DNA from: Mycobacteriales bacterium
GTDB taxonomy: Bacteria > Actinomycetota > Actinomycetes > JAFAQI01 > DASSKL01
Direction: 5' to 3'
NCBI GenBank assembly: GCA_035690485.1
Contig: DASSKL010000082.1
Span: forward strand, 1 to 64,000
DNA: 64,000 bases
The notes under the pieces are model-generated. The model did not search any database, was not told the origin of the DNA, and was given only the letters and a program-made list of their open reading frames with translations. Each line of letters starts with the position of its first letter. The stretch's first letter is position 1. This document shows positions 2,681 to 28,196 of this stretch, in pieces. Position numbers and translations under genes: made by a program.

Positions 2681-2977
2681 GTGGCAGGCATCACCCGAGC
2701 CGAGGTCGCGCACCTGGCGGGACTAGCGCGCATCGCGATGACCGACGACGAACTCGACCGCATGCCGGCGCAGCTCGACGTGATTCTGCAGGCGGTGGCG
2801 CGGGTCGCTGAGGTCGTCGACGACGACATCCCGCCGACGTCGCACCCGGTGCCGCTCAGCAACGTCTTCCGGCCCGACGAGGTGCGGCCGTCGCTGCCGC
2901 GCGAGCAGGTGCTCGCCGGTGCGCCGGACGCCGAGCACGACCGCTTCCGGGTGCCCCGGATCCTGGAGGAAGAGTGA
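2681..2977 (+). CDS. gatC: Asp-tRNA(Asn)/Glu-tRNA(Gln) amidotransferase subunit C
   Basis: 98 residues from GTG, the usual GatC length. It begins [21 protein letters not shown], the conserved N-terminal helix of GatC, and ends with [12 protein letters not shown], the tail that wraps around GatA. GatC holds the GatA-GatB complex together, which converts Glu-tRNA(Gln) to Gln-tRNA(Gln). It is the first gene of gatC-gatA-small membrane ORF-gatB. The start has no Shine-Dalgarno sequence but a TAGACT hexamer seven bases upstream. Confidence 0.95.
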
Positions 2978-3014
2978 ACGCCGGCCGCGACGGCAGCGCC
3001 CCGGGACGGTCGAC

Positions 3015-4508
3015 GTGACGGACCTGGTCCGGCTGACCGCCGACGAGCTGAGCCGGTGGATCGCCGCCGGCGAGGTCTCCTCGGTCGAGGTCACCCAGGC
3101 GCACCTCGACCGCATCGCCGCGGTCGACGAGCGCGTCCACGCGTTCCTGCACGTCGACGCCGAGGGTGCGCTGAGCGCCGCCCGCGCGGTCGACGACCGG
3201 CGCGCCGCGGGCGACCCGCTGCCCTCGCCGCTCGCGGGCGTCCCGCTCGCCCTCAAGGACGTGCTCACCCAGAAGGGCGTCCCGACGACCTGCGGCTCGC
3301 GGATCCTCGAGGGCTGGCGACCGCCGTACGACGCCACCGTCGTGCGCCGGCTCAAGGAGGCCGGCGTCGTCATCCTCGGCAAGACCAACATGGATGAGTT
3401 CGCGATGGGCTCGTCGACGGAGCACTCGGCGTTCGGGCCCACGCGCAACCCGTGGGACCTCGAGCGGATCCCCGGTGGGTCCGGTGGCGGTTCGGCGGCT
3501 GCCGTCGCGGCCTACGAGGCACCGCTCGCGATCGGCACCGACACCGGCGGCTCCATCCGTCAGCCGGCCGCGGTGACGGGCACCGTCGGTGCCAAGCCGA
3601 CCTACGGCGGGGTCAGCCGCTACGGGCTCGTGGCGTTCTCCTCCAGCCTCGACCAGGCCGGCCCGTGCGCCCGGACGGTGCTCGACGCGGCGCTGCTGCA
3701 CGAGCTCATCGCCGGTCACGACCCGCTCGACGGCACCAGCATCGACGCGCCGGTGCCCCCCGTCGTCGAGGCGGCGCGCGCTGCCGACGTCAGCGGCATG
3801 CGGGTCGGAGTCGTTCGCGAGTTCGCCGGCGAGGGCTACCAGCCGGGGGTCGAGGCGCGGTTCGCGGAAACCGTTGCCCTGCTGGAGGAGCTGGGAGCAA
3901 GCGTTGTCGAGGTGTCGTGCCCGCACTTCGCCTACGCACTCGCCGCCTACTACCTCATCGCGCCGAGCGAGGCGTCGAGCAACCTGGCCCGCTTCGACGG
4001 CATGCGCTACGGCCTGCGCGTCGGCGACGACGGCGAGGCCAGCGCCGAGGAAGTGATGGCACGCACCCGCGACGCCGGTTTCGGCGACGAGGTCAAGCGC
4101 CGGATCATCCTCGGCACCTATGCGCTGTCCGCCGGCTACTACGACGCCTACTACGGCTCGGCGCAGAAGGTGCGCACGCTGATCAGTCGCGACTTCGCCG
4201 CGGCCTACGAGCAGGCCGACGTGCTGGTCTCGCCGACGACACCGACCACGGCGTTCCCGCTCGGTGAGCGGCTCGCCGACCCGCTCGCGATGTACCTCGC
4301 CGACCTGTGCACGATCCCGGCCAACCTCGCCGGTGGAGCGGCGATGTCGATCCCGTGCGGTCGCTCCGACGACGGGCTGCCGGTCGGGTTCCAGGTCATG
4401 GCACCCGCGCTGGCCGACGAGCGGATGTACCGCGTAGCCGCCGCCGTCGAGGCCGCGCTGCTCGACCGGTGGAGCCACCCGCTGCTCGACGAGGCGCCGG
4501 CGCTGTGA
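3015..4508 (+). CDS. gatA: Asp-tRNA(Asn)/Glu-tRNA(Gln) amidotransferase subunit A
   Basis: 497 residues from the GTG at 3015; the open frame runs upstream but that part overlaps gatC and is not GatA-like. GatA is the amidase that releases ammonia from glutamine for GatB. The amidase-signature catalytic triad is visible: Lys81 in LALKD, the cis-Ser156 in PGGSGGGS, and nucleophile Ser180 in [10 protein letters not shown]. Length and the whole core match GatA rather than a general amidase. Its stop overlaps the next GTG (GTGA), so translation of the downstream small ORF and gatB is likely coupled. Confidence 0.97.
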
Positions 4509-4705
4509 ACGTCCTCGGTCGTGGGGTCGACGCCGACCTCGTGCGGGCCGTGTCCGCCGTCCTCGCCGTCGCGCTGCTCCTGCTCGGCGTCCTCGTGGTC
4601 TCGGTGGCGGCGCTGGCGCTCGGCGCCCTCGCCGGGCTCGTCGCGCTGACACTGTTCCTGGTCCGGGCCGAGGACCGCCGCCACTCCGGGAGAGGATCCG
4701 CGTGA
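4505..4705 (+). CDS. Small two-helix membrane protein between gatA and gatB (hypothetical)
   Basis: 66 residues. The GTG start shares GTGA with the gatA stop, and the TGA stop shares GTGA with the gatB start, so it sits as a precisely coupled cistron. Residues about 14-53 are almost entirely Val/Leu/Ala/Gly, enough for one long or two short membrane helices, followed by a charged tail ([11 protein letters not shown]). No family is recognised. The tight overlaps on both sides argue for a translated gene rather than a spacer, but low-complexity GC-rich sequence could give such an ORF by chance. Confidence 0.55.
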
Positions 4706-6195
4706 CGACGACAGCCCTTCCGGCCTACGACGACGTGCTGACGCGCTGGGAGCCCGTGCTGGGCCTCGAGACCCACGTCGAGCTGGGCACCGCGTCGAAG
4801 ATGTTCTGCGGGTGCGCGACGACGTTCGGCGCGGAGCCCAACACGCAGGTGTGCCCGACCTGCCTCGGGCTGCCCGGCTCGCTGCCGGTCACCAACGAGG
4901 CGGCGATCCGCTCGACGGTCCTCATCGGCCTGGCGCTCGGCTGCGACATCGCGTCGTGGTGCCGGTTCGCGCGGAAGAACTACTTCTACCCGGACATGCC
5001 GAAGGACTTCCAGATCTCGCAGTACGACGAGCCGCTGTGCACCGACGGGCACCTCGACGTCGAGGTCGGCGGGCGCACCTGGCGGGTCGACATCGAGCGG
5101 GTGCACCTCGAGGAGGACACCGGCAAGACCCTGCACGTGGGCGGCGCGACCGGGCGCATCCACGGCGCCGACCACTCGCTGGTCGACTACAACCGGGCCG
5201 GGATCCCGCTGGTCGAGATCGTCACCCGGCCGGTCGTCGGGGCGGGCGCGGAGGTCGCGCGGGCCTACGTCGCCGAGCTGCGCGACCTGCTGCGGACGCT
5301 CGGCGTATCCGACGTACGCATGGAGCAGGGGTCGCTGCGCTGCGACGTCAACGTCTCGCTGCGACCGCGCGGCGAGCAGCGGCTCGGCACCCGCAGCGAG
5401 ACCAAGAACGTCAACTCCCTGAGGTCGGTCGAGCGGGCGGTCCGGCACGAGGTCGAGCGGCAGGCGGCGGTGCTCGAGTCGGGCGGCCGGGTGGTGCAGG
5501 AGACCCGGCACTGGCACGAGGACACCGGCATCACGACCTCCGGGCGGAGCAAGGAGACTGCGGAGGACTACCGCTACTTCCCCGAGCCCGACCTGGTGCC
5601 CCTCGCTCCTGCCCGCGAGTGGGTCGAGGAGCTGCGGGCCACGCTGCCGGAGCTGCCCGCGGCCCGGCGGGCGCGGCTGCGCTCCGAGTTCGGCTACAGC
5701 GACCTCGACATGGAGCAGATGACCAACGCGGGCGTGCTCGACCTCGTCGCGGCCACGGTGGCGGAGGGGGCGTCGGCCGACGACGCCCGTGGCTGGTGGC
5801 TCGGCTACCTGGTGGGTCAGGCCAACGAGCGCGGCATCGAGCCGGCCGATCTCGCCATCACGGCGGCGCAGGTCGCCCGCGTGGCCGGCCTGGTGGCCAC
5901 GGGCACGCTGACGGCGGCGCTGGCTCGGCAGGTCGTCGAGGGCGTGCTCGCCGGCGAGGGCGAGCCGGAGCGGGTGATCGAGGCCCGCGGCCTTCGGGTC
6001 GTGTCCGACACCGGTGCGCTCGACGCGGCCATCGACGAGGCGATCGCCGCGCAGCCGGACGTGGCCGAGAAGATCAGGGCCGGCAACGCCAAGGCGGTCG
6101 GCCCGCTGGTCGGCGCGGTCATGAAGGCGACCAAGGGCCAGGCCGACGCCGCCCGGGTGAGCCGGATGATCCTGGAGCGCCTGTCCGGCAGCTGA
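4702..6195 (+). CDS. gatB: Asp-tRNA(Asn)/Glu-tRNA(Gln) amidotransferase subunit B
   Basis: 497 residues from GTG overlapping the upstream stop. GatB phosphorylates and amidates Glu on mischarged tRNA(Gln). The N-terminal motif [18 protein letters not shown], the metal-site [13 protein letters not shown] and the [10 protein letters not shown] segment are diagnostic, and the C-terminal YqeY-like helical domain ([18 protein letters not shown]) is present. Together with gltX and tRNA-Gln at 28-30 kb it indicates that Gln-tRNA(Gln) is made by the indirect route. Confidence 0.97.
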
Positions 6196-6699: not shown

Positions 6700-8861
6700 G
6701 CAGACCGGCCGGCGGTACCGACGAGCTCGTGGGCCGGCGGGGTGGGCACCTCTCGCACGCGCAGTAGCCGGGCGAGCGGCGACGGGAACCACCAGTTCCA
6801 GCGACCGAACAGGCTGACCAGCGCCGGCAGCAGCAGCGCCCGCACGATCGTCGCGTCGAGCAGGATGCCGGCGCCGAGGCCGGTGGCCATCACCTTCAGG
6901 TCGGTCTGCGGCGCCGACGCCAGCGAGGCGAACGCCAGGAACAGGATCAGCGCGGCGCTGGTCACCAGCCGCCCGGTGCGACCCAACCCCTCGATCACGG
7001 CTTCGTCGGTCGACGCGCCGCGGTCCACCGCCTCGCGCATGCGGGCCAGGATGAAGACCTCGTAGTCCATCGAAAGGCCGAACAGGAACGCGAAGACCAT
7101 CAGCGGCACCCAGAACGTGATCGCCCCCGTGCCCGCGATGCCGAAGACGGCGTCGGACCCGTGGCCCTGCTGCCAGAACCACGTCATGAGCCCGAACGTC
7201 GCCGCCATCGAGACGAGGTTGAGCGCGATCGCCTTGAGCGGCAGCACGATCGACCGGAACGCCCGTGCCAGCAGCAGGAACGTCAGCAGCGCGATGATGG
7301 CGAACATCAGCGGGAAGTTGCCGAAGACCGCGTGCTGGTAGTCGAGCTGGACCGCACCGTCGCCGGCGATCCCCACGACGCCGGGCATCCCGTCGAGGGC
7401 GTCGCGAGCCGCCTTGACCGGGCCGATCGTGAGGTTGTTGACCGTGGCGTCGCGAGCGATGCCGAGCACGATCGTGGTGCCGTCGCGGTTGCTGCTCGCG
7501 TCGGTCGGGACCGCAACGCTCACGATGCCCGGCACCTTCGCGAGGCGGTCGGCAGCGGCCTGGGCGTGGCCGCGGTCGACGAGCACCTCGAGCGGCGTGA
7601 GGACGCCGCCGGGCACCCCGCCGTCCTGCAGGCGCTGGTAGGCCGCATGAGCCGGCCCGGTCTTGGCCAGCGCGTCCACCCCGGTCTCACCGGTGGTCAG
7701 GGAGAAGACCGGGACGATCAGCACGGCGAGGACGGCGAGCGCGGCGCCGGCGGCCACCCAGCGTCCGCGCACGACGGTCCGCGCCCAGGCGGTCCAGCCA
7801 CGGCTCGCGGCGTCCTCGTGGCGGATCCGCGGCCAGTCCACCCGCGGCCCGATGCCGCCGAGCATCGCCGGCAGCAGCGTCAGGGTGACGGCGGTCGAGA
7901 CCAGCGGGATCAGCATGCCGCCGTAGCCCACGCTGCGCAGACCGGGCGCCGGCAGCACGACGAGCGCGAGCAGGCCGATCGCGACGGTGAGTCCCGACAG
8001 CAGCACCGCGCGGCCGGCCGTCGCCATCGCCGTGCGCACGGCCGTGTGGTTGTCGGCGCCCCGTTGCCGCTCCTCCCGCCAGCGTGTCACCACGAGCAGC
8101 GAGTAGTCGATCGCGACGCCGAGCCCGATCAGCGAGACGAGGAACTGCACGATGAACGACACGTCGACGAGGTAGGTCAGCCCCAGGACGACGAGCAGCG
8201 TCGACGTGATGGCGACCGCGGCGATCAGCAGCGGTACGAACGCCAGCAGCGAGGCGAACACGAAGGCGAGCACCGCCAGCGCGCCGAGCCCGCCGAACAG
8301 CGTCTCCACCAGCACGCCCGGGCCCTCGGTGTGGCCACCGGTCGCCAGCTCGCCGAGGCCGGTCGCCCCCACCGTGTAGCCGGGCGGCAGCGCGCCGCGC
8401 ACGATCCCGGCCGCCGCCTCGGACGGCAGCTTCGCCGAGAAGCTGGCCGGCATCGGCGCGAAGACCATGGCGTACGTCGTATGCCCGCCGGTCGTGCGGA
8501 AGACCGCGTCGTGGGTGGTCGCGAAGTCGACGACACGCAGGTCGGGACGGGCGGCTCGCAGCCGGTCGAAGGCGCCGGCGACCGCCTGGTCATCGAGCCC
8601 GGCACCGGTCGGCCCGGTGACCGTCACGAGCGACGGATCGGTCAGGCCGCCGTTGCCGTAGTCGTGCACGATCTGCTTCGCCGTCTCGTAGCCGGGCTGG
8701 CCGGGCAGCGAGAAGTCGACGGTCAGCCGGTTCGAGACGTGGCTCGCGCCCGCCGCGCCCGCCAGGAAGGCGACGATCCAGAAGGCCGTGACCAGCCGGC
8801 GGTGGTGGAGGACCCAGTCGGCGACGCGCGCGAGCGTGCCGGAGGCGACGGTGTCGGACAT
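6696..8861 (-). CDS. MMPL-family RND transporter
   Basis: 721 residues from the ATG at 8861 (MSDTVASG); a longer in-frame start at 8924 is possible but adds an un-MMPL-like tail, while GGGGGA precedes the chosen ATG. The architecture is the standard 2x(1+5) membrane layout: one helix near residues 20-40, a soluble domain, a five-helix bundle, then the repeat. The two proton-relay Asp-Tyr pairs are visible in GLGVAIDYSLLVVTRWREER (about residue 250) and GLSMDYEVFILARMREA (about residue 600). Such proteins export lipids or hydrophobic compounds across the inner membrane. The substrate is unknown. Confidence 0.9.
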   Translation of the reverse strand: MSDTVASGTLARVADWVLHHRRLVTAFWIVAFLAGAAGASHVSNRLTVDFSLPGQPGYETAKQIVHDYGNGGLTDPSLVTVTGPTGAGLDDQAVAGAFDRLRAARPDLRVVDFATTHDAVFRTTGGHTTYAMVFAPMPASFSAKLPSEAAAGIVRGALPPGYTVGATGLGELATGGHTEGPGVLVETLFGGLGALAVLAFVFASLLAFVPLLIAAVAITSTLLVVLGLTYLVDVSFIVQFLVSLIGLGVAIDYSLLVVTRWREERQRGADNHTAVRTAMATAGRAVLLSGLTVAIGLLALVVLPAPGLRSVGYGGMLIPLVSTAVTLTLLPAMLGGIGPRVDWPRIRHEDAASRGWTAWARTVVRGRWVAAGAALAVLAVLIVPVFSLTTGETGVDALAKTGPAHAAYQRLQDGGVPGGVLTPLEVLVDRGHAQAAADRLAKVPGIVSVAVPTDASSNRDGTTIVLGIARDATVNNLTIGPVKAARDALDGMPGVVGIAGDGAVQLDYQHAVFGNFPLMFAIIALLTFLLLARAFRSIVLPLKAIALNLVSMAATFGLMTWFWQQGHGSDAVFGIAGTGAITFWVPLMVFAFLFGLSMDYEVFILARMREAVDRGASTDEAVIEGLGRTGRLVTSAALILFLAFASLASAPQTDLKVMATGLGAGILLDATIVRALLLPALVSLFGRWNWWFPSPLARLLRVREVPTPPAHELVGTAGRSA

Positions 8862-25290: not shown

Positions 25291-26883
25291 GTGCGACCCG
25301 CCGACGACTTTCACGTTTACGACACCACGCTGCGCGACGGCGCCCAGCGTGAGGGGCTCTCCCTCACGGTCCAGGACAAGCTCGCGATCGCACGGCACCT
25401 GGACGAGCTCGGTGTGGGCTTCATCGAGGGCGGCTGGCCGGGCTCCAACCCGAAGGACGCGGAGTTCTTCCGCCGGGCCCGGACCGAGCTGCAGCTGACG
25501 ACGGCGACGCTCGCGGCGTTCGGCGCGACCCGCAAGGCCGGAGCGGTCGCTGCCGACGACCAGCAGGTCGCCGCGCTGCGCGAGTCGGGTGCCCCCGTGG
25601 TGACGATCGTGGCCAAGTCGCACGACCGGCACGTCGAGCGCGCGCTGCGCACCACGCTCGACGAGAACGTCGCGATGATCCGCGACACCGTCGCCCACCT
25701 GCGGGCCGAGGGCCAGCGGGTGTTCCTCGACGCCGAGCACTTCTTCGACGGCTACCGCGCCAACCCGCACTACGCGCTCGCGGTCGTCGAGGCCGCGGCC
25801 GAGGCCGGGGCCGACGTGGTCGCGCTGTGCGACACCAACGGCGGGATGCTCCCGCACCAGCTGGCCGACATCGTCCACGAGGTCGTGGCCCGCGGCCTCC
25901 GCGTGGGCATCCACGCGCACGACGATGCCTCCTGCGCGGTCGCCAACAGCCTGGCGGCGGTGCAGGCCGGGGCCAGCCACGTGCAGGGGACGGCCAACGG
26001 CTACGGCGAGCGGTGCGGCAACGCCAACCTGTTCAGCGTGGTCGCCGGGCTCGAGCTCAAGCTCGGCCGGCCGGTCCTGCCCGAGGGCCGGCTGCGCGAG
26101 CTCGTGCGCGTCAGCCACGTCATCGCCGAGGTCGCCAACATCGCACCCGACCCGCACCAGCCCTACGTGGGGCAGAGCGCGTTCGCGCACAAGGCGGGGC
26201 TGCACGCATCGGCGGTCAAGGTCGACCCGGACCTCTACCAGCACGTCGACCCGTCGACGGTCGGCAACGACATGCGGATGCTCGTTTCCGAGCTCGCCGG
26301 TCGGGCGAGTGTCGAGATGCGCGGCAAGGCGCTCGGCCTCGACCCCGACCGCGAGACGGTGGGCCGGGTGATCCAGCGGGTCAAGGATCTGGAGTCGATC
26401 GGCTTCACGTTCGAGGCCGCCGACGCGTCGTTCGAGCTGCTGCTGCGCGAGGAGATCGACGGGTCGCGCCGCCGCTACTTCGAGCTGGAGTCGTGGCGGG
26501 TCATCGTCGAGCGGCGCGACGGCCACGTCGTCAGCGAGGCGACGGTGAAGCTGCACGCCAAGGGTGAGCGCATCGTGGCGACGGGAGAGGGCAACGGTCC
26601 GGTCAACGCGCTCGACCGGGCGCTGCGCTCGGCGCTCGAGCAGCTCTACCCCGGGCTCGCGTCACTCGAGCTGGTCGACTACAAGGTGCGCATCCTCGAG
26701 GGCGCGCACGGCACCGGCGCGGTGACCCGCGTGCTGGTCGAGACCGGCGACGGGCGCGCCGAGTGGGACACTGTCGGGGTGCACGAGAACGTCATCGAGG
26801 CCTCGTGGCAGGCGCTCGAGGACGCCTACACCTACGGCCTGCTGCAGCAGGAGGACGGGCAGCAGCCCGCGGCCGCGTCATGA
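25291..26883 (+). CDS. cimA: (R)-citramalate synthase
   Basis: 530 residues from GTG. CimA condenses pyruvate with acetyl-CoA, giving 2-oxobutyrate through LeuCD and LeuB, so isoleucine can be made without threonine deaminase. The sequence YDTTLRDGAQREGLSLTVQDKLAIARHLDELG, GGWPGSNPKDAEFF and VGIHAHDDASCAVAN is that of the long CimA group rather than LeuA or homocitrate synthase, and a C-terminal allosteric dimer domain is present. An ATGA overlap links it to the next ORF. Confidence 0.93.
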   Translation: MRPADDFHVYDTTLRDGAQREGLSLTVQDKLAIARHLDELGVGFIEGGWPGSNPKDAEFFRRARTELQLTTATLAAFGATRKAGAVAADDQQVAALRESGAPVVTIVAKSHDRHVERALRTTLDENVAMIRDTVAHLRAEGQRVFLDAEHFFDGYRANPHYALAVVEAAAEAGADVVALCDTNGGMLPHQLADIVHEVVARGLRVGIHAHDDASCAVANSLAAVQAGASHVQGTANGYGERCGNANLFSVVAGLELKLGRPVLPEGRLRELVRVSHVIAEVANIAPDPHQPYVGQSAFAHKAGLHASAVKVDPDLYQHVDPSTVGNDMRMLVSELAGRASVEMRGKALGLDPDRETVGRVIQRVKDLESIGFTFEAADASFELLLREEIDGSRRRYFELESWRVIVERRDGHVVSEATVKLHAKGERIVATGEGNGPVNALDRALRSALEQLYPGLASLELVDYKVRILEGAHGTGAVTRVLVETGDGRAEWDTVGVHENVIEASWQALEDAYTYGLLQQEDGQQPAAAS

Positions 26884-27052
26884 CGGCGCCGGCCGTGCCG
26901 CCCGTGCACGCCGGAGTGGTCGGCGGGCACGGCGACGTGGTCGCGCTGCTGGTGGTCCTGCTGATCCTCGCCTGCACGCTGCTGGCCGTCGTGCTGCCGG
27001 GCAGCGTGCGGATCCTGCAGCTGCGGCGCACCGCGCGCCGGCACCGCCGCGG

Positions 27053-27056
<4 letters not shown>
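26880..27056 (+). CDS. Small single-span membrane protein (hypothetical)
   Basis: 58 residues; its ATG shares ATGA with the cimA stop. A membrane helix of about 20 residues (VVALLVVLLILACTLLAVVL) is followed by a basic tail (RTARRHRRG), predicting an outside-N, inside-C orientation. No family recognised. Its TAG stop overlaps the stop of the convergent HiPIP-like gene by three bases. Confidence 0.6.
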
Positions 27057-27298
<242 letters not shown>

Positions 27299-27327
27299 CG
27301 CGGGCTCCTCACCTCGTGGGCCAGATA

Positions 27328-27342
27328 TGAGAATGATTATCA
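27328..27342. promoter_or_regulatory. Fur/Zur-like box
   Basis: TGAGAATGATTATCA is a 15-base near-palindrome with six of seven arm positions symmetric, matching the TGAnAATnATTnTCA form of actinobacterial Zur and Fur-family sites. It lies 30-44 bases upstream of the HiPIP-like gene (minus strand), over its expected promoter, and 68 bases before the FAH-family start. A metal-responsive repressor is inferred. Confidence 0.55.
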
Positions 27343-27397
27343 CAACGGGCCCCGGCGGCCCCTCGGCCCGGCCCCTACCCGTGGCCGCTTCGCTGGA

Positions 27398-27403
27398 TAA
27401 CCT
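27398..27403 (+). promoter_or_regulatory. Candidate -10 hexamer for leaderless FAH-family gene
   Basis: TAACCT lies seven bases before the GTG at 27411 without a Shine-Dalgarno sequence. Confidence 0.45.
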
Positions 27404-27410
27404 CGGCGTC

Positions 27411-28196
27411 GTGCGCATCGCGAGGTTCAGCCCACCCGGAAGCGCTGAGCAGACGCCGGCTTTCGGGATCGTCGAGGGAAGCCCGGGGGAGGAGACCGTC
27501 GCCGAGATCGACGGCCATCCGTTCGCGGCGTTCACCTTCACGGGCGAGCGGCACGCTCTCGCCGACGTACGGCTGCTGGCGCCGGTGCTGCCGAGCAAGG
27601 TCGTCGCGATCGGCAAGAACTACGCGGCGCACGCGGCCGAGATGGGCTCCGACCTGCCCCCCAACCCCACCATCTTCCTGAAGCCGTCGACCGCGGTGAT
27701 CGGTCCCGGCGACCCGATCGCCTACCCCCCGTCGTCGACCCGGGTCGACTACGAGGGTGAGCTCGCGATCGTCGTCGGCCGGCTCTGCCGCGACGTGCCG
27801 GAGGGGCGGGCGGCCGACGTGATCCTCGGCTACACCTGCGCCAACGACGTGACCGCGCGCGACCAGCAGGCCGCCGACGGGCAGTGGTCGCGGGCCAAGG
27901 GCTACGACACGTTCTGCCCGCTGGGACCGTGGATCGAGACCGACCTCGACCCCTCCGACGTCGAGCTCGTCACGCGGCTGCAGGGCGAGGTGAAGCAGCA
28001 GTCCCGCACCTCGCTGCTCGTGCACCCGGTGCCGAAGCTCGTCGCCTACATCACCGCCGTGATGACGCTGCTGCCGGGCGACGTGATCCTCACCGGCACG
28101 CCGGCCGGCATCGGGCCGATGGAGGTGGGCGACGAGGTCTCGGTCACGGTCGAGGGCATCGGCACGCTGGCCAACCGCGTGGTGGCCCGTGCCTGA
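27411..28196 (+). CDS. Fumarylacetoacetate hydrolase-family protein
   Basis: 261 residues from GTG. The FAH fold is shown by VVAIGKNYAAHAAEMGSDLPPNPTIFLKPSTAVIGPGD, the metal site in VDYEGELAIVVGRL (two Glu) and GYTCANDVTARDQQ (Asp), and LPGDVILTGTPAGIGPMEVGDEV. Relatives are acylpyruvases, oxaloacetate decarboxylases or 2-hydroxyhepta-2,4-diene-1,7-dioate isomerases; the substrate is not evident. The frame overlaps gltX by 8 bases, a position common for this gene in actinobacteria. Confidence 0.88.
   Translation: MRIARFSPPGSAEQTPAFGIVEGSPGEETVAEIDGHPFAAFTFTGERHALADVRLLAPVLPSKVVAIGKNYAAHAAEMGSDLPPNPTIFLKPSTAVIGPGDPIAYPPSSTRVDYEGELAIVVGRLCRDVPEGRAADVILGYTCANDVTARDQQAADGQWSRAKGYDTFCPLGPWIETDLDPSDVELVTRLQGEVKQQSRTSLLVHPVPKLVAYITAVMTLLPGDVILTGTPAGIGPMEVGDEVSVTVEGIGTLANRVVARA

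Follow-up and report, generated by a model that had tools for sequence, protein, structure and literature searches.

In Desulfovibrio vulgaris the PerR regulon includes the perR-rbr-rdl operon (PMC545781), and in Frankia PerR is encoded in an operon with rubrerythrin (PMC4531530). Rubrerythrin of the aerobic type co-occurs with DUF3501 and the Fe-S oxidoreductase RFO; 185 genomes were listed with all three genes versus 25 with rubrerythrin and DUF3501 only, and in the portions of that account used here neither RFO nor DUF3501 has a proven role (PMC5114695). Ferriperoxin was driven in vitro by ferredoxin:NADPH oxidoreductase (PMC3317640). Rubredoxin-less rubrerythrins of this kind are widespread in aerobes, and the source of their electrons is unsettled.

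The locus described here lies in a window of 64,000 nucleotides, the whole stretch of DNA that was analysed, and comprises a palindromic box upstream of a gene for a small four-cysteine protein, Cys4 (Table 1). Our reading of the comparative sequence data, to which we give a probability of about two in three, is that Cys4 is under PerR control within the rubrerythrin system. As far as the available parts of the D. vulgaris account go, the likeness to perR-rbr-rdl consists of a PerR-type gene, a rubrerythrin, a small redox protein as the presumed donor and a palindromic PerR box. The D. vulgaris operon, however, has a classical rubrerythrin and a rubredoxin-like small protein, whereas the present genome has a rubredoxin-less rubrerythrin and a HiPIP-like protein, and the box sequences differ. 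By analogy, the Cys4 system would work like perR-rbr-rdl with another carrier, without being a member of that operon family. Frankia has the same PerR-rubrerythrin pair, and the set of 21 orthologs described below includes those of Frankia; the Frankia account, in the sections drawn on here, names neither an operator nor a Cys4 gene (PMC4531530), and the Frankia Cys4 promoters, unlike that in the window, lack the box. A rubredoxin-less rubrerythrin adjoining DUF3501 is shared with the aerobic-type systems (PMC5114695), ferriperoxin (PMC3317640) and sulerythrin, in so far as these are covered by the parts of the sources used, but in contrast to the system of PMC5114695 the window's genome has Cys4 and no match to RFO at E 1e-30.

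Table 1. Features at and around the palindromic box, in window coordinates
Feature	Position	Strand	Basis
Predicted operator of the Fur-family type, most plausibly a PerR box, TGAGAATGATTATCA	27328..27342		Sole site at ≤1 mismatch in the assembly; score with perR-site matrix
Cys4 gene, starting with GTG and encoding 81 aa; cysteine pattern CX2C-X12-C-X14-C; HiPIP-like, with a proposed role as redox partner to aerobic rubrerythrin	27053..27298	-	PF01355 16.4 bits; four invariant Cys; co-occurrence
Intergenic region separating the divergent Cys4 and FAH-family genes, contains the box	27299..27410		Sequence, ORFs
Gene of the FAH family (Rv2993c-like), divergent from Cys4; an improbable target of the box	27411..28196	+	PF01557, PF10370

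A pattern scan of the window showed that TGAGAATGATTATCA matches the Fur-family pattern TGANAATNATTNTCA with no mismatch, and six of its seven symmetric pairs hold, the broken one being G at position 4 against A at position 12. The gap between the box and the GTG at 27298 (minus strand) is 29 bases, which places the box at −30 to −44 of Cys4; the GC content is 73% in the window and 69% in the divergent intergenic stretch of about 115 bases. A first-pass annotation of this DNA had reported the same pattern fit, the same distance of 30–44 bases before the Cys4 start and surroundings of about 70% GC, all of which are borne out. From base composition, an exact match is expected 1.7e-5 times in 64 kb and 8e-4 times in 3.13 Mb, and simulated genomes (second-order Markov, n = 20) contained a mean of 0 sites with at most one mismatch to TGANAATNATTNTCA. 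The same annotation had proposed a genome scan with Zur and Fur matrices; a genome-wide scan for the pattern returned the box as the sole site at ≤1 mismatch in the 3.13-Mb assembly (3,132,725 bases in 102 contigs, 96.73% complete, with about 3% of the genome possibly missing). The box is a predicted operator of the Fur-family type. No sigma-70-like promoter was detected by consensus scan between 27250 and 27450 of the window.

The HiPIP model PF01355 scored 16.4 bits on the window's Cys4, under its cut-off of 22, and matched 36 of 43 Cys4 homologs at E ≤0.1 (best 8e-4). When these 43 homologs (55 are in hand) were aligned, 18 residues were invariant, including the four cysteines. Among solved chains the closest match is to a HiPIP, 8z82_a (E 0.006; 0.036 with a profile), and the AlphaFold model of Cys4 is poor (mean pLDDT 57.2, pTM 0.32). 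Cys4 resembles HiPIP in having four cysteines at similar spacing and a W-C-x-x-W ending; it differs from PF01355 proteins in its short length, its score below the cut-off, the lack of an export signal as judged by eye, and a core of its own that its homologs possess, YCWH...R...G.(.)WWCQWWE. Cys4 is best understood as a small Fe-S protein akin to HiPIP, for which we infer the cluster type. A search of plasmid records gave no match to Cys4.

The rubrerythrin of the window's genome matched PF02915 above the cut-off and no rubredoxin model; the gene next to it encodes DUF3501 (PF12007), and its best solved chains are 9onm, 4di0 and sulerythrin 1j30. Among the 393 genomes of the window's class, Cys4 was present in 43 and a rubredoxin-less rubrerythrin (E ≤1e-20) in 43, with 41 genomes carrying both. 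Cys4 occurred without rubrerythrin in G052 (85% complete) and G231 (a partial match), and rubrerythrin without Cys4 in G021 and G104. These counts are dominated by family f18, which supplies 34 of the genomes having either gene, and the corresponding Fisher values ignore kinship; outside f18, both genes were found in 8 genomes, Cys4 alone in 1 and rubrerythrin alone in 2. Family f2, of the window's order, includes 12 genomes, and the only one with either gene, G006, has both. In a second class, that of G067, which we take to belong to the phylum Myxococcota, 37 of 192 genomes have Cys4 and 92 have rubrerythrin at E ≤1e-36, a cut picked after a gap had been seen (the next match is at 6.4e-32); 34 have both, and Cys4 is absent from 58 of the 92. 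At the looser E 1e-20, rubrerythrin was found in 127 of the 192 genomes. Three Cys4 genomes (G082, G498 and G537) lack rubrerythrin at both cuts.

The rubrerythrin neighbourhoods of 20 of the 34 Cys4-positive and 20 of the 58 Cys4-negative rubrerythrin genomes of the myxobacterial class were compared for an RFO-like frame, defined as at least 200 codons with at least 9 cysteines and a CxxCxxCxxxC motif. Such a frame was found in none of the 20 Cys4-positive neighbourhoods, several of which are on short contigs and three of which have no visible DUF3501, and in 18 of the 20 Cys4-negative ones, where it lies between rubrerythrin and DUF3501. A whole-genome search of 80 chosen genomes with one RFO query (CCG and Fer4 domains, E ≤1e-30) hit none of 37 Cys4-positive and 23 of 26 Cys4-negative genomes of the myxobacterial class, and none of 17 from actinobacteria, of which 15 have Cys4; the 23 matches fall into two grades, of 66–85% and 36–39% identity. 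With both approaches combined, which cover 44 of the 58 Cys4-negative rubrerythrin genomes, RFO was present in 41 of the 44. The three without it are G463, G479 and G544, and the last two fall within the main Cys4 clade of the rubrerythrin tree, indicating that Cys4 may have been missed or lost there. On this tree a single change suffices for RFO, its genomes lying on one side of a branch with 78% support from 200 bootstrap replicates; for the Cys4 label among the myxobacteria four are needed, at least three of them on starred branches. The exclusion of Cys4 and RFO is sharp as read from these genomes, but it is built on few independent swaps, and its Fisher value overstates the pattern. Rubrerythrin without either Cys4 or RFO was seen in G021, G104, G463, G479 and G544, which might reflect yet another kind of partner, divergence or gaps in the assemblies.

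The two-way exclusion and the position of RFO together argue that Cys4 and RFO belong at one place in the pathway. The balance of these data leans slightly towards Cys4 being the electron donor to the rubredoxin-less rubrerythrin. A broader proposal is favoured to the same small degree: in actinobacteria and myxobacteria a whole family of HiPIP-like proteins, small, cytosolic and defined by Cys4, would have taken over from RFO as dedicated donor to aerobic rubrerythrin, with PerR co-inducing donor and rubrerythrin in some lineages. One could also envisage that Cys4 and rubrerythrin are merely co-inherited in a peroxide-defence set and make no direct contact, Cys4 serving DUF3501, cluster repair or another enzyme. 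The two genes are indeed mostly unlinked (they are on contigs 82 and 37 in the window's genome), and G021 and G104 do with a rubrerythrin and neither Cys4 nor RFO, as this alternative would allow; we nevertheless consider it rather unlikely in view of the reciprocal exclusion with RFO, which in 18 of the 20 Cys4-negative neighbourhoods is flanked by rubrerythrin and DUF3501. If Cys4 is the donor, it would be the missing redox partner for the rubredoxin-less rubrerythrins of actinobacteria and myxobacteria, and an 81-residue protein alternating with the 464-residue RFO would be a compact candidate, convenient for purification and assay, whose comparison with RFO could show the job of the latter. 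Search listings of the open-access (PMC) literature gave no link between a HiPIP-like protein and rubrerythrin, and the available portions of PMC5114695 do not mention Cys4 or HiPIP.

A Pfam FUR search of the window's assembly detected two Fur-family proteins, L002 on contig 37 and L003 on contig 54. L003 has Pro and Glu in place of the two Asp of PerR, and we take it to resemble Streptomyces Nur. L002 has the five PerR metal ligands (His37, Asp85, His91, His93 and Asp104) along with two CxxC pairs; among solved structures, its closest relative is Bacillus subtilis PerR (2fe3). The same five residues are the ligands given for PerR, with Glu at the place of Asp104 in Fur and with Cys used instead of the His37 ligand in Zur, according to the parts of the source drawn on (PMC4866751). 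The NCBIfam PerR models, which judged by their names were built for other phyla, scored below cut-off on L002 (the best, NF047406, reached 108.1 bits against a cut-off of 200), and we therefore limit the claim to a PerR-type protein.

On contig 37 perR is followed by rubrerythrin and then by DUF3501, and the promoter of perR itself carries TGAGAACGGTTCTCA, which has no mismatch to TGAGAANNNTTCTCA, the perR-promoter form of the box; the window box has one. TGAGAACGGTTCTCA adjoins the −10 element of a sigma-70-like promoter, TTGCCT-18-CATAAT. When the assembly was scanned with TGAGAANNNTTCTCA, these were the only two sites at ≤1 mismatch, against 0.2 expected by simulation. A further seven sites had 2 mismatches; because the reversed-pattern control gave 4 and the simulation mean at ≤2 mismatches was 7.45, they are regarded as background and were rejected as additional members of the regulon in this genome.

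The PerR search was extended to 49 Cys4-bearing genomes, 7 of them from relatives and the others the source genomes for 42 of the 54 named loci. By their top match these genomes split into 20 genomes at E ≤1.6e-45 and 29 at 1.8e-29 or weaker; the former, together with the perR of the window's genome, make up a set of 21 orthologs. All 21 have the box upstream of perR at ≤2 mismatches (5 with none, 13 with one and 3 with two), of which only 20 are independent because the consensus was derived from the window genome's own site, and the HDHHD ligands and the CCCC set are kept in all 21. In contrast, no box was found at ≤3 mismatches upstream of any of the 10 weaker Fur matches that were fetched. 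A matrix built from the 21 perR-linked sites scored the window box at 25.2, within the range of the sites themselves (15.4–27.0). We conclude from these comparisons that the box is very probably bound by the PerR of the window's genome.

Five genomes have a box at ≤2 mismatches in front of Cys4: the window's, G006 (locus L005), G033 (L008), G069 (L021) and G052 (L009; L022 is the same DNA and the two were counted once). None of 1889 random 400-base stretches taken from the 54 named loci contained it. In G006 and G069 the order is box, Cys4, perR and rubrerythrin, followed by DUF3501, and in G069 the frames overlap by stop and start codons, Cys4 with perR and perR with rubrerythrin. It is this run in two relatives, together with the box at the perR promoter, that argues for placing Cys4 under PerR and peroxide. 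The box is absent, at ≤2 mismatches, from 52 of the 54 named Cys4 loci and all 23 further loci of the class, and it was not found upstream of Cys4 at L006 and L007; since most Cys4 loci lack it, PerR control of Cys4 appears to be confined to a few lineages. In the Frankia loci a box is retained upstream of perR and missing upstream of Cys4; the incomplete genome G052 (85%) shows the box in front of Cys4, yet its PerR match is weak (E 3.1e-21). Ahead of the Cys4-perR-rubrerythrin run the boxes are paired, 17 bases apart, in G006 (contig 112, 7265 and 7282) and in G069 (contig 246, 4282 and 4299), unlike the single box in the window. The DUF3501 match after rubrerythrin in L021 (5538–6109) is split over three frames, which points to a frameshift in this gene or to its misassembly. 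A loose linkage was also observed beyond the window's class, in L061, an Acidimicrobiales MAG: there DUF3501, rubrerythrin and a weaker Fur-family gene (2920–6117) are no more than 3 kb away from Cys4, on the opposite strand.

In the mechanism that we propose, the box would be the operator for the PerR-type repressor encoded with rubrerythrin and DUF3501 on contig 37, and like boxes would join Cys4 and perR-rubrerythrin-DUF3501 in one small regulon. Metal-loaded PerR would occupy the box and block the Cys4 promoter; inactivation of PerR by H2O2 would then allow Cys4 and the perR-rubrerythrin genes to be expressed together, and Cys4 would pass electrons to the rubredoxin-less rubrerythrin for the reduction of peroxide, taking the place that RFO has in other lineages. 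The operator could also serve as a handle for finding the rest of the PerR regulon in actinobacteria.

The first-pass annotation had described a Fur/Zur-like box in front of a HiPIP-like gene and had suggested that zinc or cluster supply is the signal. The Fur-family type of the operator and the HiPIP-like gene stand, but the member of the family that acts here is probably neither Zur nor Fur, and peroxide, acting through a PerR, would be a better signal than zinc or cluster supply, given the near-identical box at a PerR-type gene and the lack of a detectable ZnuA-family gene in the 96.73% complete assembly. The annotation's version, in which zinc-loaded Zur represses Cys4, has some points in its favour. 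The consensus of actinobacterial Zur boxes has a 7-1-7 form, which the present box suits. Boxes of that form have been described (PMC6103462, from the parts at hand). Moreover, in G069, at positions 7805–7819 of contig 5 (L157), a ZnuA gene (PF01297, E 2.6e-74) is closely preceded by TGACAATCATTCTCA, which is likely to be a Zur box of nearly the form of the PerR boxes; Zur-like and PerR-like boxes are for this reason hard to separate by sequence. We consider control by Zur improbable at the window locus, however, as neither of the only two Fur-family proteins is Zur-like by its ligands, the genome has no second Zur-like site at ≤1 mismatch, and the run headed by the box in G006 and G069 includes perR and rubrerythrin. 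No Zur gene with a boxed zinc-uptake target was found in the window's genome, and both Zur and Fur were rejected as the regulator in favour of PerR.

That the box serves the divergent FAH-family gene instead of, or in addition to, Cys4 is highly improbable. In its favour, the FAH start is 68 bases from the box in the window, and many loci of actinobacteria have FAH as the gene divergent from Cys4. Against it, the box precedes Cys4 at L005 and L021, two loci with no FAH gene detected, and is missing from Frankia loci in which FAH adjoins Cys4. The FAH-family gene and then gltX both point away from the box on the side opposite to Cys4, and control of either by the box was rejected on the same grounds. 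An open frame of 58 aa with no family over cut-off is present at 26880–27056 of the window, following the citramalate-synthase-like gene.
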